This document shows positions 2,406 through 32,718 of a DNA stretch of 33,215 nucleotides, piece after piece; position 1 is the stretch's first letter, and every line of letters starts with the position of its first letter. The translations under genes were made by a program, and so were the position numbers. Below the pieces are notes generated by a model. It had not been told where the DNA came from. It searched no databases and was given only the letters and a program-made list of their open reading frames with translations. The DNA is from a virus: positions 1 through 33,215 of IMG/VR virus record IMGVR_UViG_3300006166_000003; one strand, given 5' to 3'.

Positions 2406-2559
2406 TTGGTTTCTCTGCTTCTGTCTCCTTGTCGGACTCCACTCTGGGAGTGGTGGTGCTTGTGTCATTTTCTTCATTATTTGTTTTCATTATCCTATCA
2501 TATTCTTCAGCATTGTCAAGAATAGATTTCTTTAAGTCTTCTAGGGACCATTCAGTCAT
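2395..2559 (-). CDS. Small acidic hypothetical protein coupled to talC
   Basis: A 54-residue frame starting MTEWSLEDLKKSILDNAEEY and ending in a Thr/Glu/Lys-rich low-complexity tail (ETEAEKPSEE). The ATG at 2559 overlaps the TGA of talC (ATGA), a classic translational coupling arrangement. The N-terminal half looks like a short amphipathic helix; the tail is likely disordered. Its end overlaps the start of the next small membrane protein. Function unknown. Confidence 0.6.
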   Translation of the reverse strand: MTEWSLEDLKKSILDNAEEYDRIMKTNNEENDTSTTTPRVESDKETEAEKPSEE

Positions 2560-3251
2560 TGAAGTGCGTCTAAATCCCCACCATGTCTGGTGCTATTTTG
2601 TGGACTGTATACTGTATTCTTTTTGACTGACTCCCAGTCTTTATCAAATATTTCTAATCCTTTATCTGTAAGGACATGGTTATACATTCCTTGGAAGATC
2701 TTAGGTGGCATGGTAACAACATGTGCTCCATTCCAGAATGCTCTTGATACCTTATATACGTCACGTATAGATGCTGCAAGTATCTGAGTCTTTACCTGAT
2801 GTACTCTATAGACTTCACTTATAGATCTGACAATCTCCAGCCCAGCAACGCTATTATCGTCCAACCTCCCAATAAAAGGACTGACGTACGTAGCACCTGC
2901 CTTTGCAGATAAGATAGCCTGAGCAGCATTGAATATAAGCGTAACATTTACTTTAATTCCCTCATCGGATAGTTTTTTACAAGTCTGTAGACCTTCTACA
3001 GTGCAGGGTACCTTAATGGTACACTGATCTTCAAATATCGAATGAAGTCGTTTACCTTCCTCATACATATTCTCCACGACTTCCATGCTGATATCTGGGA
3101 TACCCCACTTAGCTAACTCATGGTAAACATCCTCTGGATCTCTACCACTCTTCATAATCAGTGATGGATTAGTCGTCACTCCATCTATCAAACCTGTATT
3201 ATGACAGTTAAGGATCTCGGTAGTATCGGCACTATCAATAAAAATTTTCAC
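2556..3251 (-). CDS. talC: Transaldolase (TalC type)
   Basis: A 231-residue transaldolase of the short TalC/fructose-6-phosphate-aldolase-like class carried by many T4-like cyanophages. It transfers the dihydroxyacetone unit between sugar phosphates in the pentose phosphate pathway. The N-terminus MKIFIDSAD, the VTTNPSL motif at 25-31 and the TIKVPCT motif with the Schiff-base Lys80 are all present, as is a complete C-terminal half of the barrel. Length is normal for the class. The start overlaps the stop of the 87-aa gene upstream. In infected cyanobacteria the phage enzyme is thought to raise pentose phosphate flux for NADPH and ribose; cp12 in this same window should act in the same direction. 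A host-like promoter at 3990-4018 probably drives the group. Confidence 0.95.
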   Translation of the reverse strand: MKIFIDSADTTEILNCHNTGLIDGVTTNPSLIMKSGRDPEDVYHELAKWGIPDISMEVVENMYEEGKRLHSIFEDQCTIKVPCTVEGLQTCKKLSDEGIKVNVTLIFNAAQAILSAKAGATYVSPFIGRLDDNSVAGLEIVRSISEVYRVHQVKTQILAASIRDVYKVSRAFWNGAHVVTMPPKIFQGMYNHVLTDKGLEIFDKDWESVKKNTVYSPQNSTRHGGDLDALQ

Positions 3252-3511
3252 TCAGGAACCTCCTCATAGTTTTCAACGAATTCATTAATTGGAAACAACA
3301 ATGGATGACATGCTTCACAAATTAGATACTGAGAGTATCGATACATGTCATCCATAGTATAACTCTGATTACTAGCAGCTTCCTGCTGTATCTCTTCTAT
3401 TGCCATTGGATCTGGCAACTCATCAAAGGTAAAGGGAATACCCTGTATGTACCACATATCAACTACCTTATCATTTAGGTAACAGTAGTTACGTGTGATA
3501 CGTCCTTTCAT
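3248..3511 (-). CDS. Hypothetical protein upstream of talC
   Basis: An 87-residue acidic protein with no membrane segment. It carries a CEAC motif (YLICEACHPLL near 63-73) that could be half of a zinc site, and an acidic end (ENYEEVPE). Its start overlaps the stop of the 85-aa gene and its stop overlaps the talC start, so the three are translationally coupled. I do not recognise the family. Confidence 0.7.
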   Translation of the reverse strand: MKGRITRNYCYLNDKVVDMWYIQGIPFTFDELPDPMAIEEIQQEAASNQSYTMDDMYRYSQYLICEACHPLLFPINEFVENYEEVPE

Positions 3512-3768
3512 TACAACCCGTTTGTCATCTCCCGTAGAGCAGCGTCCACATATGTTCGTGTTCCCACTGGATCTGGGACAAACTCATCGGGGTTTGGAAT
3601 ATTTATATCTGGTGCTTCTGGGTCTTGAGCAACAGATGCTACTGGTGAGATGATACAAACAATACCCTTGTTAGTAGTTACTCTCAAGGTATTTCCTTTC
3701 TCTACCAGTGTAAGAGAAAAGGGGACATTCTCCTCGAATTCCCCTTGTGTTAGATTAATGATATTCAT
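3511..3768 (-). CDS. Hypothetical protein
   Basis: An 85-residue protein: a beta-rich N-terminal half (MNIINLTQGEF through TNKGIVCIISPV), then a Pro/Asp-rich linker and a short helical end (RTYVDAALREM). It overlaps the genes on both sides by a few bases, which supports it as a real member of the talC run. No motif gives a function. Confidence 0.65.
   Translation of the reverse strand: MNIINLTQGEFEENVPFSLTLVEKGNTLRVTTNKGIVCIISPVASVAQDPEAPDINIPNPDEFVPDPVGTRTYVDAALREMTNGL
3600..3607 (-). promoter_or_regulatory. Possible internal late promoter (TATAAATA) before the 87-aa gene and talC
   Basis: A perfect TATAAATA octamer on the minus strand inside the 85-aa gene, 89 bases upstream of the ATG at 3511. 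It could give late expression of the 87-aa gene and talC, but it may be chance within coding sequence. Confidence 0.35.
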
Positions 3769-3968
3769 ATGTATGTTATCATGTCGTCTGGTACTAGTCG
3801 TTTAAAATGCTGTAGGGTTTCAGTAAACCCATCCACTCCATCTTCACTAAACTCCCACGTCACTATCTCATCATATCCTTCATTATCCATGATCTTCACT
3901 TCTCGCTTAGACACATCAACCCAGATATGCTCTAGGAATGTGTCTGTGTCTCCTGTTATCTCTGCCAT
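3765..3968 (-). CDS. Small acidic conserved-looking protein
   Basis: A 67-residue acidic protein with the pattern FLEHIWVDVSKREVKIMDNEG, then VTWEFSEDGVDGFTETL and the end DDMITYI. It resembles small conserved hypothetical proteins of cyanophages as I remember them. It overlaps the next gene by 4 bases (ATGA), and a host-type promoter lies just upstream (3990-4018), so it is the first gene of the talC transcript. Function unknown. Confidence 0.7.
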   Translation of the reverse strand: MAEITGDTDTFLEHIWVDVSKREVKIMDNEGYDEIVTWEFSEDGVDGFTETLQHFKRLVPDDMITYI

Positions 3969-3989
3969 GTTGGATGGGTTACTGAAATT

Positions 3990-4018
3990 ACTATAGCACG
4001 GTTCCTAGATTTTGGCAA
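3990..4018 (-). promoter_or_regulatory. Sigma70-like promoter for the talC run
   Basis: TTGCCA at 4013-4018 and TATAGT at 3990-3995 on the minus strand, separated by exactly 17 bases, about 20 bases upstream of the ATG at 3968. This fits a host-RNA-polymerase early or middle promoter. The -35 hexamer is identical to that of the promoter at 4937-4965. Confidence 0.6.
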
Positions 4019-4916
4019 GGAACTTGTTGTACACTCCTCTTTTCTTAAGAGAGGTGTGGTTTAGGTGAGCAGTGCTCACACTCAATTGGACTTGACCGTC
4101 TTCCTTGTCTAAGAGTCGGTCAGTAGCTAAGCAAAGTAACTGATACATCATCGTTAGACGACCTTCATTACTCATGTATGCTGCTTTACCTTCTCCTTCC
4201 CAGAATTCTACAAGATCTCTTAGGACTGGGACACTACCATTACCTAGTACTGTATCCTCAAAGTATTCCATGAGGACTTCAGCAACATCACGTAAACCAT
4301 TGTTAACACATAGGGTTGCCCATGCTCCAATAGTCTTTCTGCTGCCAGACCAGTCAGTACATGAATCGAAGAAACTCGATACAATCTTATCTGACTCAAT
4401 GATATAATTTTTCCAGTAGTCCCATTGCTGTATCGCATTGTTAATGGTGAGTTCTTCACCTCTGCGACGCTTTAACAGGTCTTTCATGACTGCTACATTT
4501 TCAGGTGTAGCAGATGAATCCTTTCGATGGATCTCATCAATTGGTTTACGAGGTTTAGATAATGCACACTTGGAGAAGCAATTTGCTTCTACCCCAGTGA
4601 CAACTATAACTGTGAACCATTCATCTGGATCTCTAGTTGATATAACTTTCAACCTGTGCTGTGCCTCAGTGAGGTTACCCTCCTTATTGAAGGTTATAGG
4701 TTGACCATCCAGAAGCCACCCTTGTTCATCAACATTCTTGCTGATCTTTTTAACATGAGTCTTTGACATCTTTCGATTGTCAAAGTTGTATTCTTTTAGC
4801 AGGACATCTGCTATCACACTGTTGATCTTGACGACCAGAGCTTCATATACCTCTGATCTTGGGTTAAAAGGAAGAGCGATTGTGTCTTCCAGTATACTTA
4901 AGGTCATATCTGACAC
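4005..4916 (-). CDS. ParB/DGQHR-like domain protein
   Basis: A 303-residue soluble protein. Residues about 47-92 have the layout of phage ParB-like domains: NRKMSKTHVKKISKNV, then GWLLDGQPITF and TEAQHRLKVI. In that superfamily the usual signature is DGQHR; here it reads TEAQHRL, keeping the QHR. The remaining 200 residues are helical and unassigned. A strong sigma70-like promoter lies just upstream (4937-4965), so it is likely expressed before the flanking structural genes. DNA or nucleotide binding is possible by family; a catalytic role is not shown. Confidence 0.65.
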   Translation of the reverse strand: MSDMTLSILEDTIALPFNPRSEVYEALVVKINSVIADVLLKEYNFDNRKMSKTHVKKISKNVDEQGWLLDGQPITFNKEGNLTEAQHRLKVISTRDPDEWFTVIVVTGVEANCFSKCALSKPRKPIDEIHRKDSSATPENVAVMKDLLKRRRGEELTINNAIQQWDYWKNYIIESDKIVSSFFDSCTDWSGSRKTIGAWATLCVNNGLRDVAEVLMEYFEDTVLGNGSVPVLRDLVEFWEGEGKAAYMSNEGRLTMMYQLLCLATDRLLDKEDGQVQLSVSTAHLNHTSLKKRGVYNKFLAKI

Positions 4917-4936: not shown

Positions 4937-4965
4937 ATTATACACTAGTTCAGCAGAACTGGCAA
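4937..4965 (-). promoter_or_regulatory. Sigma70-like promoter for the ParB-like gene
   Basis: TTGCCA (4960-4965) and a perfect TATAAT (4937-4942) with a 17-base spacer on the minus strand, about 20 bases before the ATG at 4916. The -35 box lies inside the 3' end of gp5, so an early promoter is nested in the end of a late gene. Confidence 0.7.
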
Positions 4966-7656
4966 CCCAAAGACCTGACAAGGACCAGCAGCACATCCCA
5001 CTGCCAAGTAACCACTATTGACCACGTATGCTCCCATACCACTGTTACATTGGTTAATGATAGCACCCATAGGCACAAACTCAGCAATAACACCAGTCGG
5101 TGCTGCGATGAATGTAGCATGGAATGCATTGGTAGATCCTGCAAGGATGTCTGCCATACTACTAGGCATTGTCTGACCTACTGAAATTCTAACCTGTGTA
5201 GGTGGTGCAACTCCTGGGAATGGTAGGTCTGTAGTTATATCAACAATACATCCCTTAACCATAGCAAACTGTCCAGTCAAGGACGTTGCAACCATATTGA
5301 ATAGTGCAATAAACTCAAATCTACCTGAGTTTAAGAATGATGATATCCAGTTGGCCTGGTTGATTATCTCACCATCAGCAACATTTTCAATGGTATTACC
5401 TTCTATCTTGACGTTTTGAGAGTTGATCATCAACGACTCAATAGCAGCATAACTTGTCTTCGCTGCTTGTACCTTCAACTCACCACTAACTGCTATATCT
5501 CTATCACCCTCGAATCTTTCAGAAGACTTCTGCTCTGTAGAGTCTTTCAATTCACCTGCTAACTGAGGTCCAGTCTGAGTACGTCCCCACTCGTCAGCAG
5601 CATCATCGAAAGGTATCTCATCAGTAGGATAGAAACCACCTATATTCTCTCTCTTTAATACTTTATTCCTTGCTTTAGCACCATACATCGCTAAGTCTTG
5701 TGACTGTGCAATGACATCTGCTGATACTGTATTCTGAGTGACATTAGTATCTACATCTTTCAGAGCATTACCTCCACCAGTAACATCAGGTGATTCAGAG
5801 GATCCAGAAGATTCTGACTGTGGACCTTGAGAATAGTGACCATTCCATGATCCTGCTACCTCTTGGTGCATGTTACCCATGACCTTAACATAGAAGTCAC
5901 CCTCTACTGTTAGACAGTAGTTACCTTTAATATTCTCACACTTATCCTTAGCAATGATCTTAGTCTCATTGTTAGGTACGTTACGGTGTATATTACCAAA
6001 ACTATCTTCAAAACTACTTACACCACCAGGTCCAGTGACTACTCTCTTTACTTTACCTTCAGTAGCATCATCTATAATTCTTGTGCCATTAAGATGACTT
6101 GATACCTGCATCAGATATGGATTGGTATCCTTAAACATCTCATCAATGTAACTACCCATAGCACCTGATTGAGTGGTGGGTGTCGCTGCCATATTCAATG
6201 ATGTTAAGTCTGCTCCTGAATCCTGATTGATTAAACTATCTACATTCTCATAGGGAGTACCTTTAATAGCATCTTCTATGTTGTCGCATTCCGTGGATCC
6301 TATCAGTGGGAACCACCCCTTAGACTTCGGCCTCTTTATCTTCCTGTTACAACTCTTTTTAAATAGTGCTCCTAGTATTGCCATAAGGATCTGAAGGAGA
6401 CTACCCCAGTCTAGTGAGGTGAAATCAAATTCAAATATACTCTGCACTGTCTCACCCAGTGCCATTGCCTTACCTAGCATTCCTTTAGCAGTGCTTATAG
6501 CAGAGATAACATCACCAGCAACGTCCTTAACACGATTCATTGCAGATGTGATACCACCCAAGACACGGTTGCTTATTCCTTTAACAGCAGAATCAATAGT
6601 CTTACCTAATGCAGACGTAGCTATCTTATCTACAGCAAGGCTCGCCATTTGGTTAGCAAAGTTTGCCGTATCACTCAGTGCTCCCTTCACCAGTCCTAAC
6701 CACATTGGTGTCTTAGCACAGAATAGTGCAAAGATCTGATCCAAGAAGGACATTAATAGGTTAACAACTACCAGTGGTACGAATGAAGATATAATCTTCA
6801 CCAACATTCCTACAACCTCAGCAATTAACTTTGCCATCACCTCTTTTAAAGGTGCAAGGATACCTGCTATACCACCAGAAAGGAAGTTCATTGTCTTCCC
6901 TAGGTGCTCTCTAACCTTGTCTCCTGCTATACTCTTACCACTAATTAAGGATACTAATCCAGTCTCAGCTCTACCTAATGCTGCTGACATATTACCTAAC
7001 TCAGTCAGCATCCTCTTTAAATCTTTCTCAAATCCACCACCAGCAGGTCCAGCAACACCATCACCAATACCCATCATCTCAGTGGGTGGTTTAATACTAT
7101 TAGTTACAGAGTTACCAGGCGTTACTGCCTCTGCCATGTTAATACCACCACCTCTTGACTCCTCCTGTTTTCCTGTTGGAGATGCAGGTGTGTTTTCATT
7201 CTTAGGGAATGGGTTACCAGACCTTGCATTATTGTTAGTAAGGTCAGTCTGTTGTGGAGTACTGGTCTTTAATTCATTTGCAGGTCCAGCATCTGCAATA
7301 GTTGTAGCACCATCAGACTGCTCTTGTGCGAATCCTCTGAACGCACCTAAGACACATGGTAACTGTGCTTCTTCACCATCAAGGAAGAAACCTAATACCC
7401 ATGCGCCTGGTTGTAATTCTGTTGTAGTACCTGCTGATTTAGTCTGTGGTTGGTCAGTTGGTAATAATACTGTTGCCCAAGGAAGTACTTCCTTCGGTAC
7501 TTCTTCTAGATATGCCTTTCCTTCTGAGTTACCTGTATACCAACCAAGTATACGCACTTTAATACGACCTAGCTCGGAAGGATCTCGAATCTCTTCGACT
7601 TCTCCTACCCACCAAGTAAATGTATCTCTTCCAAGATAATCGGTACGTACGCCCAT
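4945..7656 (-). CDS. gp5: Baseplate hub / tail spike protein, gp5-like
   Basis: A 903-residue gp5-like central spike protein, much longer than T4 gp5 (575). Residues about 13-115 form the gp5/gpV-type OB domain (GRIKVRILGWYTG, LPWATVLLPTDQP, GAWVLGFFLDG, PCVLGAFRG). The region near 560-620 (FEDSFGNIHRNV, DKCENIKGNYCLTVEGDFYV, KVMGNMHQEVAGSW) resembles the start of the gp5 beta-helix. Between them lies a hydrophobic Ala/Gly/Leu-rich insert at about 235-430; I find no T4-lysozyme signature. The last 100 residues are a separate hydrophobic, Gly-rich domain. It lies with gp27 as expected for the hub, but three auxiliary genes separate the two. A late promoter variant (GATAAATA) lies upstream. Confidence 0.85.
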   Translation of the reverse strand: MGVRTDYLGRDTFTWWVGEVEEIRDPSELGRIKVRILGWYTGNSEGKAYLEEVPKEVLPWATVLLPTDQPQTKSAGTTTELQPGAWVLGFFLDGEEAQLPCVLGAFRGFAQEQSDGATTIADAGPANELKTSTPQQTDLTNNNARSGNPFPKNENTPASPTGKQEESRGGGINMAEAVTPGNSVTNSIKPPTEMMGIGDGVAGPAGGGFEKDLKRMLTELGNMSAALGRAETGLVSLISGKSIAGDKVREHLGKTMNFLSGGIAGILAPLKEVMAKLIAEVVGMLVKIISSFVPLVVVNLLMSFLDQIFALFCAKTPMWLGLVKGALSDTANFANQMASLAVDKIATSALGKTIDSAVKGISNRVLGGITSAMNRVKDVAGDVISAISTAKGMLGKAMALGETVQSIFEFDFTSLDWGSLLQILMAILGALFKKSCNRKIKRPKSKGWFPLIGSTECDNIEDAIKGTPYENVDSLINQDSGADLTSLNMAATPTTQSGAMGSYIDEMFKDTNPYLMQVSSHLNGTRIIDDATEGKVKRVVTGPGGVSSFEDSFGNIHRNVPNNETKIIAKDKCENIKGNYCLTVEGDFYVKVMGNMHQEVAGSWNGHYSQGPQSESSGSSESPDVTGGGNALKDVDTNVTQNTVSADVIAQSQDLAMYGAKARNKVLKRENIGGFYPTDEIPFDDAADEWGRTQTGPQLAGELKDSTEQKSSERFEGDRDIAVSGELKVQAAKTSYAAIESLMINSQNVKIEGNTIENVADGEIINQANWISSFLNSGRFEFIALFNMVATSLTGQFAMVKGCIVDITTDLPFPGVAPPTQVRISVGQTMPSSMADILAGSTNAFHATFIAAPTGVIAEFVPMGAIINQCNSGMGAYVVNSGYLAVGCAAGPCQVFGLPVLLN

Positions 7657-7675: not shown

Positions 7676-8131
7676 TTATTTATCAAGTCTCTCGAAGCAA
7701 AATTCACCTTCCGACTCTTCCTTACCCCATCGAAACTTACCAGTCTCTAAATCATACCCAGTATCTATAGCACGATACTGTTTACCATTGAATCTTATTT
7801 TGGAGACCATCCTCGTGTTACCCTGGATGCATTCTCCATCAGTATTTCCATTCCACCAAATTCCATCCCAATTCCAAATGAAAGGACAGGACTCAACACC
7901 AGTAGTAATATTAGTAGTTTTAGTATAGATGACGTTTGCATCCATTTTCTCCCAATCGTACTGAATATAATTATATGGATCGTCTTCTCCCTTATACTTA
8001 TACCAAGACTTAGCTAATAGTATACCATAACTAGGTTCTGTTATTCGTATATCAATCTGAGGCCACTGTGAAGGATTAGAGAATGCTTGATTTCTATTCC
8101 TATAGTGACCTACTACCTCATTAAATAACAT
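7676..8131 (-). CDS. cpeT: CpeT-like phycobiliprotein lyase family protein
   Basis: A 151-residue protein matching the CpeT/CpcT pattern: HYRNRNQAFSNPSQWPQIDI near 9-28, DPY at 51-53, a central Cys82 followed by tryptophans (FIWNWDGIWW), CIQGNTRMVSKIRF at 101-113, the DTGYD motif at 123-127, and a terminal RWG...EGEF strand. Host CpeT/CpcT proteins help attach bilin chromophores to phycobiliproteins, and cpeT homologues are known auxiliary genes of marine cyanophages. Its start overlaps the end of the oxygenase by 11 bases, within a cassette run with cp12 under a late promoter. The phage protein's own activity is not shown by sequence. Confidence 0.8.
   Translation of the reverse strand: MLFNEVVGHYRNRNQAFSNPSQWPQIDIRITEPSYGILLAKSWYKYKGEDDPYNYIQYDWEKMDANVIYTKTTNITTGVESCPFIWNWDGIWWNGNTDGECIQGNTRMVSKIRFNGKQYRAIDTGYDLETGKFRWGKEESEGEFCFERLDK
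7677..7684 (-). promoter_or_regulatory. Late promoter variant (GATAAATA) before gp5
   Basis: GATAAATA on the minus strand, 21 bases before the gp5 ATG at 7656, overlapping the end of the CpeT-like gene. One mismatch to the TATAAATA consensus. Confidence 0.55.
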
Positions 8132-8765
8132 CGATATCTTTCCAACTGTGGGGATCTATAATAGCAAATTCATTATCATTCTTAACATCAGATGCTGTTA
8201 CTATTATATCATATGATATAGAGTATCGTGGTGTATTACCATGATATTCTTCTACCTCATGCTCTATGTTAGATGGGAATATGAATAGTCTACCCTCTTC
8301 AGGTACATACTGAGTATCACCATAACTAAGGTCATTCAATTCTTCAACATGTATAGGTAATCTATGTATGTTAGGTGAATAGAATTTAAGTTTACCACCA
8401 GTCAATGCACTACCTGTCTTAGGATAATATACTACAGATAATACTGAGTTTGGATGAGTATGTCTATTGATCTTACCACCCTTCTCTACCACCACAGGCC
8501 ATGCCTTTGATGCATATATTTTAATCTTATCTAGATCAACATTATAAGCATTGAGGTATTGTCTACAATGAAATGCTACCTGACTGTTTAACCAAGTGAA
8601 TCTCTCATCATCGAATAACAAATAGTCTCCATAGTTATCCCCAGAATAACTATTGCTTGACGCAGAAATCCCTCTCATATACTCAAGCATTTGATTCTTG
8701 GTATCTTGAGAGGGGTTTAGATCTTCATGATATATTGCGGTTGGAAACCATAAATCAATCGTCAT
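8121..8765 (-). CDS. 2OG-Fe(II) oxygenase family protein
   Basis: A 214-residue protein with the TIGR02466-like 2-oxoglutarate/Fe(II) dioxygenase layout. It has NRHTHPNSVLSVVYY (candidate metal ligands His102/His104), then FIFPSNIEHEV with the distal His169, and PRYSISYDI with Arg180 in the position that binds 2-oxoglutarate. The N-terminus (LWFPTAIYHEDL) is also typical. Such genes are numerous in T4-like cyanophages; substrates are unknown. It overlaps cp12 upstream and the CpeT-like gene downstream by 11 bases each. It is one of three members of this superfamily in the window. Confidence 0.8.
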   Translation of the reverse strand: MTIDLWFPTAIYHEDLNPSQDTKNQMLEYMRGISASSNSYSGDNYGDYLLFDDERFTWLNSQVAFHCRQYLNAYNVDLDKIKIYASKAWPVVVEKGGKINRHTHPNSVLSVVYYPKTGSALTGGKLKFYSPNIHRLPIHVEELNDLSYGDTQYVPEEGRLFIFPSNIEHEVEEYHGNTPRYSISYDIIVTASDVKNDNEFAIIDPHSWKDIDVI

Positions 8766-8982
8766 ACACTAGGCACTCGGGCTCATCTGGATGTTGGTCG
8801 CAGAATAATTCTAAAGCATTTGGATCGTGATGATCTCCTGCAACAATCTCGTCATGATGATGTTCTTCATAATCAATTAAGTCATGTAACTCTTCCTTAT
8901 AGTGCCTTCTAGCAGCAGGATTAAGAGTTGGATCATCAAGGAGCTCTTTATCGTGCTCAATGTGTTGCTCTATAGTTGTCAT
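8755..8982 (-). CDS. cp12: CP12, Calvin cycle inhibitor
   Basis: A 75-residue protein with an unmistakable CP12 C-terminus: DPNALELFCDQHPDEPECLV plus YDD, with the conserved cysteine pair at 61 and 70. CP12 forms a redox-controlled complex with GAPDH and phosphoribulokinase that shuts down the Calvin cycle; cyanophage copies are thought to favour the pentose phosphate pathway. The N-terminal cysteine pair and AWD-type motif of full-length host CP12 are missing; instead there is a charged helix and a His-rich stretch (EEHHHDEIVAGDHH). It is the first gene of a three-gene cassette, just downstream of a late promoter. Confidence 0.92.
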   Translation of the reverse strand: MTTIEQHIEHDKELLDDPTLNPAARRHYKEELHDLIDYEEHHHDEIVAGDHHDPNALELFCDQHPDEPECLVYDD

Positions 8983-9006
8983 GATTGTCTCTGTAGAGTG
9001 TATAGT

Positions 9007-9014
9007 TATTTATG
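9007..9014 (-). promoter_or_regulatory. Late promoter variant (CATAAATA) for the cp12 cassette
   Basis: CATAAATA on the minus strand, 24 bases before the cp12 ATG at 8982. It contains the TAA stop codon of gp27 (9010-9012), so promoter and stop share bases. Confidence 0.6.
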
Positions 9015-10554
9015 TTTCTTGTTTAGGAACTGAGTCTCTAACTAGGTATAACTTGGTAGTTAGACCTTTTTTCTGGTAGATATGTGTTAATCCCGCAATA
9101 ATATACTTACCACTGAACCTATAATCTAACAGAACCTCTTCGTCTTCCTCTGTTGAAGAAGGTATCTTTACATCAATGACATTCCCTGCTGTTAAAGCAG
9201 TATTGCCAGCAACGGTGAGGTTTAACTTAATTGCCTTGAATAGATTATACCTCGCTGCTGCATATTGTGCAACTGCAATGTTATCAATATTAGAGTTTGT
9301 TCCGTTCTCAACATTTGAATTACTACTCTGATTCTTCATACCAGGTAATGCCCTGATCTTCATCCTAGTAGGTTGTGACTTCTCAATGTCATAGAATTCT
9401 GGTATAAGGAATGGTGGTTGTGCTTGGTTACCCCTTGTAGCATCATTACCATCTACTACCTTATCTGCCTTAGCAAATACTTGCTGAAAGTTAAGTACCT
9501 TAAGAGCACTGATAGTACCACTAGGTGCTGATGATAATCCAGTACCTGATACCTTACCACCCTCACTGGTGACAGCATCTACAGATTCATTTGGTGCTGC
9601 TTCTTTCTTCTTACCTGATGTAGGTGTATAACTATCCTTCTGTGATGCCAGTGATATACCTATGGCAGCAGTCTTATAAGTACCCATCCTCATATTAGCG
9701 AGATGATTTGCCTTATCAGGGTAAGTTAGTGTCTCAATAGCATACCTCTTATCTGCTCCCTCTTGAGCACCCTGCACATAGGTGTATGTGTAGACACCAT
9801 TCCTAGTTGCTTCACCTTTAGCAATACTATCGATAGATCTAAAGTTAAACCCATTCCTATTTGACCAGAATAAGAATCCAGACTGTTTATTATCACCCTT
9901 ACTTGAAGCTAATCTAGTTACCTTATCTGATAGGTAATGAATAACATCACTAGGTTTCCAACTACATGCTACGAAAGTAACTTTGGAATGATTCTCAAAA
10001 TTATATTTGTTTGCCTTCTTACTACCCTTAGTCTTAAGGTAAGTATCACAGACATACTTTGGTATATTTTCTACATCCTTAGACTTCTCTCCTGGTCCAA
10101 GTGATTTGAATACCTTATTAGCTTCATCATGGTACATCTCTGGAGATACACAGTGTAAGATATACAACTGTCCTCTCTCAGTCTTAGATATACTACCAAT
10201 CTTATAGACAACCAACTCAACATCTAAGTGATCATTTCTTATAGCAGTACCAGTTACCATCTTAATGATAACCTTCTCACCACCCTGTAAATTCTTATTC
10301 CAGTCAATAGCATCTAAGATACTGATGTCACACCTTAAGAAGGAAGACTCGATAGATTCATGGTACTGGAATTCCAATACCATCTCAGTCATATCATATA
10401 ATGTCTTACCGTTTGCTGTCTCCAGTTGTAACTTCTGGATCTCAAAATCTCTAGCGTTATCAGCATTGAAAGTACCTCCACCTGGATTAGCACCATAGCT
10501 GATCCTCTGCCAGGCAGTCGCAATGCCATTAATGTATTCTACTACTTGTGACAT
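9010..10554 (-). CDS. gp27: Baseplate hub protein, gp27-like
   Basis: A 514-residue protein with features of the T4 gp27 hub family: an N-terminal beta domain (LEFQYHESIESSFLRCDISI near 63-82, GQLYILHCVSPEMYHDEANK near 127-146), a helical stretch with YVCDTYLKTKG, and a C-terminal barrel-like part (GNVIDVKIPSS, SGKYIIAGLTHIYQKKGLTT). In T4, gp27 forms the trimeric hub ring that carries gp5; gp5 follows here after the auxiliary cassette. Residues about 305-360 are a Ser/Gly-rich, likely flexible insert. The start directly follows the stop of the tape-measure-like gene. Some distance from T4 gp27 is expected, so the call also rests on position. Confidence 0.75.
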   Translation of the reverse strand: MSQVVEYINGIATAWQRISYGANPGGGTFNADNARDFEIQKLQLETANGKTLYDMTEMVLEFQYHESIESSFLRCDISILDAIDWNKNLQGGEKVIIKMVTGTAIRNDHLDVELVVYKIGSISKTERGQLYILHCVSPEMYHDEANKVFKSLGPGEKSKDVENIPKYVCDTYLKTKGSKKANKYNFENHSKVTFVACSWKPSDVIHYLSDKVTRLASSKGDNKQSGFLFWSNRNGFNFRSIDSIAKGEATRNGVYTYTYVQGAQEGADKRYAIETLTYPDKANHLANMRMGTYKTAAIGISLASQKDSYTPTSGKKKEAAPNESVDAVTSEGGKVSGTGLSSAPSGTISALKVLNFQQVFAKADKVVDGNDATRGNQAQPPFLIPEFYDIEKSQPTRMKIRALPGMKNQSSNSNVENGTNSNIDNIAVAQYAAARYNLFKAIKLNLTVAGNTALTAGNVIDVKIPSSTEEDEEVLLDYRFSGKYIIAGLTHIYQKKGLTTKLYLVRDSVPKQET

Positions 10555-31900: not shown

Positions 31901-32718
31901 ATTGGTATCCTATCTGGGAAACAATTCTCTACACATACCTCAGTCTGGTTACCACTCCATCCATTAGGCCAGTAAGCACTACAATCTGACTTGGGTGGTT
32001 GCCATGCACCACCAAGGTAAGGTCTAAACAGACAGTCTAATGCATTTCTAACACAAGTTTTGAATGGGTCACCAGCTAATCCCTTATCAATATCACAATA
32101 ATATTTCTCTCCTGTTTCTATATGCTCCCACCATCCAGGTGCAGGGAATCCTGGTAAACTAAAATCTTTTAATGGTCTGAGTAACTTGAGTTCTAATAAC
32201 TTTCTAACCTTATCACATTGATCCTCAGGACCAGTCTTAACAATAATATATGAATTATCTTTTGTTGGTGGGTGAAGAGTCAACTTCATTGGTGGCAACC
32301 AACCAAACTCCTTGTGCATCCACGGTCCCCAAGGAGGTAACTCCCAGTCCAAACCATAGTCAGGTAACTCAGGTGGATCTGTTAGCTCTGGGATACCTGG
32401 CGGAGTCTTATAACATCTGTCAACTATTCTTCTTATAACATCACCAGGTTTAGGATCAGGTACCACTACAGGTGGATCACCTTCTGGTAGTGGATTCTGC
32501 TCGTCTAATACGTTAGGTAGGTTGTAGACTGGGACACTGTAACATCTCCCAACTATATTTCTTATTGCTTCTCCAGGATTGATAGTAGGTACAACATTAC
32601 CTGATGATCCAGCAGTAGGTACATTAGGATTCAACTGGTCTAATGGATTAGATGCCAGTATCCCACTCGGTGTTGAGTAACACCTCTCTACTATATCTCT
32701 GATGGTCTCGCCAGCCAT
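28939..32718 (-). CDS. Large virion structural protein with N-terminal triple repeat
   Basis: A 1259-residue protein with no signal peptide. Three copies of a 15-residue motif (GETIRDIVERCYSTP at 3-17, GEAIRNIVGRCYSVP at 49-63, GDVIRRIVDRCYKTP at 92-106) are spaced by Pro/Asn-rich linkers, followed by a Pro/Trp-rich domain (LPPWGPWMHKEFGWLPPMKL). A region with VPLFRFYSTVKQDTFLTTNP resembles DUF5648-type carbohydrate-associated domains. The rest is Gly/Thr/Trp-rich and beta-like. Size, composition and the late-like promoter (ACTAAATA, 32740-32747) suggest a tail fibre or decorative structural protein of cyanophages. Binding to the host surface is inferred. Confidence 0.75.
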   Translation of the reverse strand: MAGETIRDIVERCYSTPSGILASNPLDQLNPNVPTAGSSGNVVPTINPGEAIRNIVGRCYSVPVYNLPNVLDEQNPLPEGDPPVVVPDPKPGDVIRRIVDRCYKTPPGIPELTDPPELPDYGLDWELPPWGPWMHKEFGWLPPMKLTLHPPTKDNSYIIVKTGPEDQCDKVRKLLELKLLRPLKDFSLPGFPAPGWWEHIETGEKYYCDIDKGLAGDPFKTCVRNALDCLFRPYLGGAWQPPKSDCSAYWPNGWSGNQTEVCVENCFPDRIPIYESSLSSGTIQTSFDASGNLVATGSGTGVAVLKLQWNDNPNTHGVAIDNIQMGGKTWTRTGRSGEEIQTLALSGAGTTSITMNGNSGGFTIVDNNTRICMKDTHGSDCNANFSIVSTNIGSDHAYDPQGAKSGYTLTNAKPAFYILAQPIANVTVPLFRFYSTVKQDTFLTTNPGEPDTKGAGERASMNASGMAGGEVLGHVFPTAASMNSYLHADEQAEALHRFHSSNPFDHKYTIDGEIVGGNPQKIPKRWCYRIPIESKADLNISMDVEKGSAGYDNAIGFYLADATGPKYGRIIVTSARNGTNLYNAWMTSLKLNEYAGGTMGFFLIPDGGGQNSLSIMQEVTFNPLNSPHDGGFSAIGISTAQSNYCLFSDREWNPMKKDQTKWQGKNNQFWEDLIAGDDDYDDLRFWHRLGWTYGGYTYEGIQCYLYAEAAPEKVMRKIDPSVKCDARILKASFKDVVMRRMDCGNKVPNVVGNDVEWECGTCNGEYSVKLNTNQTIEAAVGGSFRFVSMGGINGGIYGACMKFTLRMKKNGTTIFTKQFEAQYWPAIGRDLWDQDITLEPTDELTFEVVSIDTGAVTGDIALEASLYALDSTMFEGSFKIMLGTQSHDSVIAKQTGNPTLNPITKEGGEIEGFAFSFNPTNRQEFEWEAGSKLAETWSEDNVPDPGDPYTYVWANNIPVAMHGSLQVNPDIPGQSRIIGNTAMPTLPGAYIDTGYLYDVEANYFSATLLESYNYRNLSGVYNHLVEDYLFTRFETLSGTNISQAYRDILTQAAPTTFARGSKPWYTLGANSIGSHYLTVVNNIWDGAAQAPQRDTYFSPITFIQDYTLDNYHGTGGGNYADAAKIRVGITFYPVIFDQTTSSKQVHYWQAMVHVIDVIDQGKGYTKGSEFVLTWPPMRDRSSENPSQTPYYPDQEAGFSFPVGKQLAWWENEDLVRRSLKEAFYQESHNKDSVVWYSGTDKAKFRVRFKITLTQCTDPP

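Follow-up and report, generated by a model that had tools for sequence, protein, structure and literature searches.

The interval between the baseplate hub genes gp27 and gp5 is likely to be a long-established place for cargo among the late structural genes of T4-like marine cyanophages, at which promoter-like boxes would split late transcription, overlapping reading frames would couple translation, and the cargo would be made from the replication-to-assembly phase onward. We analysed this site in a window of 33,215 nt, the whole stretch of DNA taken from IMG/VR virus record IMGVR_UViG_3300006166_000003, where all of the genes concerned lie on the minus strand. A gp27-like baseplate hub gene (9010..10554; 514 aa; phrog_350, 1.7e-87) forms the upstream border and is followed by cp12 (8755..8982; 75 aa; PF02672, 6.6e-11), a 2OG-Fe(II) oxygenase gene that represents the variable cargo (8121..8765; 214 aa; PF13759, 1.5e-18; phrog_81, 3.2e-32), a cpeT-like gene for a putative T-type bilin lyase or bilin carrier (7676..8131; 151 aa; PF06206, 1.3e-9; phrog_488, 1.3e-30), and, as the downstream border, a gp5-like gene for the baseplate hub/spike protein (4945..7656; 903 aa; phrog_694, 1.4e-162). 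The end of cp12 (Asp-Asp-stop) doubles as the start of the 2OG gene in an 11-nt overlap (ATGACGATTGA, 8755..8765), and the end of the 2OG gene likewise doubles as the start of cpeT (ATGTTATTTAA, 8121..8131). Late-promoter-like boxes stand 32 nt 5' of the cp12 start (CATAAATA, 9014-9007, minus strand), overlapping the gp27 stop codon, and 28 nt 5' of the gp5 start (GATAAATA, 7684-7677, minus strand), overlapping the cpeT stop codon. The first-pass annotation had described this gene order, strand and set of coordinates, with two overlaps of exactly 11 nt and late-type boxes before cp12 and gp5, and our analysis bears it out on each of these points, the boxes being of the NATAAATA type. A megablast search of the region against phage records returned 0 matches, and there is therefore no isolate close to it at the DNA level.

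The two flanking genes also hold as hub genes, as had been proposed, gp5 by sequence and gp27 by predicted fold. The N-terminal domain of gp5 gives a profile match to T4 gp5 (1pdl, 1.8e-23). For gp27 there is no significant sequence match to T4, and the AlphaFold model (mean pLDDT 76.8) has T4 gp27 (1wth_D) as its best structural row, with a VIA Z of 25.6 over 335 aligned residues at an rmsd of 3.3. Directly 3' of gp5, the window carries a second cargo stretch (2556-4916, minus strand) made up of a 303-aa gene, three small genes, one of them with a weak likeness to the Phd antitoxin, and talC. In the window cp12 and talC flank gp5 on opposite sides, whereas in P-HM2 they are adjacent near psbD.

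The CP12 domain scores 43.2 bits against PF02672 (cut-off 22.7), its C-terminus matches the solved CP12 chains 3zdf, 3b1j and 6gfo, and the C-terminal GAPDH-type cysteine pair is kept, with C61 and C70 invariant among 13 aligned phage sequences. The same alignment lacks the N-terminal cysteine pair, and the AWD_VEE core of the classical form reads HYKEEL. Cyanophage CP12 is a known exception with respect to these N-terminal and core features (PMC3906501), and judged by its sequence the window's protein is the phage form of CP12. In the 2OG oxygenase, the domain reaches 67.5 bits against PF13759 (cut-off 27) and both H102 and H169 are invariant in the alignment. CpeT scores 38.6 bits against PF06206 (curated cut-off 21) and matches the phage CpeT structure 5hi8 at 1.7e-7; it resembles 5hi8 and the cyanobacterial CpcT 4o4o in sequence (residues 8-127 and 62-149), but its identity to them is low and a lyase or bilin-binding role is putative. 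A single terminator-like hairpin within cpeT was at chance level and was discarded as a candidate. All three cargo genes are under purifying selection, with dN/dS of 0.02-0.37 wherever it could be computed.

Going by gene order, the place of these genes between two touching hub proteins could mean that the cargo proteins are themselves virion components. We think this extremely unlikely, given that the cargo families are cytosolic enzymes or regulators and that the reported virion proteome of S-SZBM1, a phage with the same gene order, lists 24 structural proteins, five proteins whose function is unknown and one enzyme, a cytidylyltransferase, and does not mention CP12, the 2OG oxygenase or CpeT (PMC9146016).

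What the site contains among relatives was surveyed in intervals taken from IMG/VR and from isolates, 190 of them distinct. The loci are a non-random set, since each search kept the 80 best hits to proteins of the window, and the frequencies given here apply to phages related to this one and not to cyanophages at large; open reading frames in the intervals were called automatically, and a few cp12 genes missed by the tiling were recovered by motif. Among the matches listed, the interval is empty, holds cp12 only, or holds 2-9 genes. P-HM2, P-SSM2 and Syn1 have empty sites, with cp12 missing from them too, and cp12 is the lone interval gene in S-SSM7 and in 37 contigs. Where other genes follow cp12 they include cpeT (in at least 127 cases), 2OG oxygenases of at least two unrelated families, a bilin reductase, a cupin, NdhI and SpeD, and one such content is ndhI together with speD; in Syn9, cp12 and cpeT both sit in the gp27-gp5 interval. 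The first gene of the interval is cp12, a near-fixed resident: among the matches listed, it was present in 116 of the 116 intervals that were reached via gp27 or gp5 and not via cargo.

Further marks of exchange come from comparisons between contigs. The sister contigs L123 and L020, which share 89% identity in gp27 and 94% in the gp5 N-terminus, differ in the interval by exactly one gene, a 2OG oxygenase. At third codon positions, L030 is 77% identical to the window in cpeT versus 55% in gp27, and L123 is 77% identical to it in the 2OG gene versus 57% in gp27. Both the indel and the closer likeness of cargo than of flanks to the window are marks of exchange. Variable content between conserved flanks, the pattern by which we recognise a cargo hot-spot, is thus seen both across the 190 intervals and in the indel of the sister pair. 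In a separate comparison, the window's cp12 showed 96-97% protein identity to its nearest relatives, in L009 and L010, yet only 67-69% identity at third codon positions, where gp27, cpeT and gp5 reached 79-91%, a contrast suggesting that recombination may have replaced cp12 as well.

These results speak to two proposals of the first-pass annotation. Its suggestion that the interval is a cargo hot-spot is confirmed by isolates and metagenomic relatives alike, with empty, cp12-only and loaded intervals. Its description of an inserted cassette stands as regards variable cargo and fails as regards a one-off insertion, since cp12 is near-fixed and P-RSM6 and S-SZBM1 share the gene order. The opposite extreme, in which an ancient fixed block of three genes and not a cargo site occupies the interval in all relatives, takes its appeal from the same facts: cp12 is nearly always there and in first place, the order of gene types, gp27-cp12-2OG-cpeT-gp5, is one that the window has in common with P-RSM6 (HQ634193) and S-SZBM1 (NC_070839), and P-RSM6 cp12 is 80% identical to that of the window. 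The 2OG genes of these two phages, however, belong to another cluster, of the PF13640 type versus the PF13759 type of the window, and a direct comparison of the P-RSM6 and window 2OG proteins found no BLAST-level similarity. Together with the many other contents and the empty sites, the differing 2OG families refute a three-gene ancient block and make a fixed block very unlikely as an account of the interval; a fixed-block reading holds for cp12 only.

Several other cargo types were encountered at the site. A ferredoxin-dependent bilin reductase occupies the hub interval of L200 (5230-5946; PF05996, 1.3e-45) and falls in a cluster of cargo proteins with five members; L228, L240, L320 and L321 probably carry the enzyme too. 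Additional divergent 2OG-Fe(II) oxygenases lie inside the interval in L018 (10839-11390) and L215 (4045-4656), as if this superfamily were drawn to the site. L198 (3645-4343) and 14 relatives share another cargo protein, about 230 aa long and without a Pfam match, whose HEGWH motif is reminiscent of a zinc metalloprotease.

The way in which genes join onto cp12 is itself recurrent. CP12 ends in Tyr-Asp-Asp-stop, and with the tyrosine encoded as TAT this reads TATGACGATTGA, in which an ATG lies 11 nt from the end of the gene. In the relatives, a start at this position is used by cpeT in at least 28 loci, by 2OG genes of the two families in at least 11, and by several other open reading frames. 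The 11-nt overlap is thus a recurrent docking point because the protein end of CP12 is conserved, and we infer that, through the overlaps, the three cargo genes are coupled in translation.

T4-type late promoters direct late transcription via gp55, gp33 and gp45. The octamer NATAAATA is a published cyanophage late promoter (PMC2984593). Across the whole window there are 12 occurrences of ATAAATA where 9.5 are expected, which is not above chance, and the argument therefore had to rest on relatives, in which a box was scored as NNTAAATA at 22-44 nt 5' of a start. By this definition gp5 has a box in 147 of the 149 intervals with cargo besides cp12 and in 1 of the 38 with cp12 alone, a strong regularity that lacks independent replication because the gp5 tree has only about two changes of cargo state, leaving 2 independent pairs for the cargo-box comparison. 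In the cargo-bearing intervals, 117 of 142 cp12 starts have a box, kept at 28-40 nt before the start, and the strict form NATAAATA precedes gp5 in 87 cases and cp12 in 99. Shuffled gp5 upstreams of the cargo class contain NNTAAATA in about 3% of cases. Whether a box is present is mostly a consequence of spacing, since cp12 has one in 117 of 119 loci where the gap to gp27 exceeds 22 nt and in 0 of 45 where it is 14 nt or less; among control genes, the corresponding counts are 50 of 61 at 25-60 nt spacing and 1 of 378 tightly packed starts. The hub-site boxes are like the T4-type late promoter TATAAATA (NATAAATA in S-PM2 and Syn9) in their octamer core and in their distance 5' of late structural genes. 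The boxes of the relatives differ from it in that the second position is often C (NCTAAATA) and in being fused with the upstream stop, and we regard them as candidate promoters. Other genes in the window, at 32718, 16135 and 1788 (minus strand), also have NNTAAATA 29, 29 and 36 nt before their respective starts, which fits a spacing of late boxes that is general to this phage.

A sceptical reading would treat the boxes as incidental AT-rich stop contexts, with the cassette belonging to a single long operon that is transcribed by read-through from a late promoter further upstream. Since it contains TAA, the box forms more easily at stop codons, most of the boxes do overlap a TAA stop, the motif is no more frequent in the window than chance predicts, and the cp12-only intervals, mostly devoid of boxes, must in any case be read through. 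Against this reading, the box overlaps the stop of the last cargo gene in 97 of 149 loci versus 5 of 338 tightly packed control stops; about half of the gp27 stops in cargo loci overlap one as well. Also against it are the narrow box-to-start distance of 24-42 nt, seen together with low information in the bases flanking the core, and the rarity of boxes before gp27 starts (3 of 140). We therefore consider incidental boxes unlikely and favour a role of the boxes as promoters of the late type.

Late expression of the cassette is plausible, the one line of support for it being the conserved late boxes. The cassette could instead be expressed mainly in the middle period, via sigma70-type promoters or read-through, with the late box prolonging or boosting its expression. 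This alternative draws on P-HM2, in which all of the auxiliary metabolic genes, cp12 and talC included, group with the middle genes (PMC5082946). The P-HM2 cp12 lies beside talC, far from the hub genes and outside the gp27-gp5 site, and has a composite sigma70/late promoter with TTGACA, TTGACATAAATA, in which a -10 element follows 17 nt after TTGACA; its score was reached by 2 in 1000 shuffles, and the composite is common to close relatives. It is the kind of promoter invoked in a proposal that overlapping early and late promoters underlie the cyanophage middle mode (PMC2984593). The octamer CATAAATA is also found about 33 nt before P-HM2 cp12, and because that gene is a middle gene, the octamer alone is no predictor of late timing. 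In the window, however, a sigma70-type scan 5' of cp12 gave nothing notable (score 8.5), hub-site cp12 upstreams scoring at least 9 are barely more frequent than in shuffles (20.6% versus 19.1%), and structural genes flank the cassette on both sides, so that mainly middle expression appears to us somewhat unlikely. With the sigma70 half lacking from the window's cp12 and present in the P-HM2 composite, timing is therefore predicted to depend on position, late here and middle there. The relocated cp12 beside talC (L156, 3682-3801; L322-L326) lies under a TTGACATAAATA...TAGGAT composite promoter, which five metagenomic relatives of P-HM1 and P-HM2 carry in almost the same form.

Sullivan et al. 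2010 (PMC3037559), in an account of cyanomyoviruses that covers the carbon-metabolism genes cp12 and talC, had already reported a hot-spot in the vicinity of gp5 and had placed cp12 "near gp5". Their accessible text agrees with our findings in the genomic neighbourhood and in its variable content, described there as mobile, and gives cpeT in 12 of 16 genomes. The movers stressed in that text are tRNAs and endonucleases, and the same portion of the paper does not describe paired late boxes, a box-spacing rule, 11-nt docking or a 2OG slot used by two unrelated families. No account of the promoter bookends, of the rule on spacing, of the fusion of box and stop codon, or of the docking was found in the searchable literature, mostly outside subscription journals. 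The site was thus known in outline, and what is new, as far as we have found, is the promoter bookends and the recurring docking at the CP12 end. Host-derived metabolic cargo within a structural module is likewise a feature of the g15-g18 hyperplastic region (Millard et al. 2009, cited by PMC2984593), but that region has another position and other cargo (plastoquinone-related genes, zwf and gnd).

In the mechanism that we favour, metabolic genes, here those for the 2OG oxygenase and CpeT, would be exchanged between cp12 and gp5 through recombination. The boxes before cp12 and gp5 would provide separate late transcription starts, and cargo could then come and go while gp5 stays independent of read-through from gp27. 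The Tyr-Asp-Asp-stop end of CP12, where its tyrosine codon is TAT, would offer a ready start codon to any next gene. The three products would appear during and after the switch from replication to assembly, with CP12 putatively restraining the Calvin cycle via its GAPDH-binding tail and CpeT putatively handling bilin. One attractive, if tentative, extension is that the site is an insulated slot, in which a promoter at the stop codon and a start codon at the CP12 end may permit scarless swaps within an essential late operon, with late expression that would set this cargo apart from the middle-class metabolic genes found elsewhere.

The usual view of metabolic genes in cyanophages is that they act early or in the middle period and supply DNA replication. 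Should cp12 and cpeT at this site be late, the Calvin cycle would be kept restrained and bilins handled during particle assembly, and the timing of cp12 would be set by its position in the genome, at the hub site or in the neighbourhood of talC. A slot bookended by promoters would also explain, in concrete terms that can be tested, how an essential structural operon takes up foreign genes and is left undisturbed.
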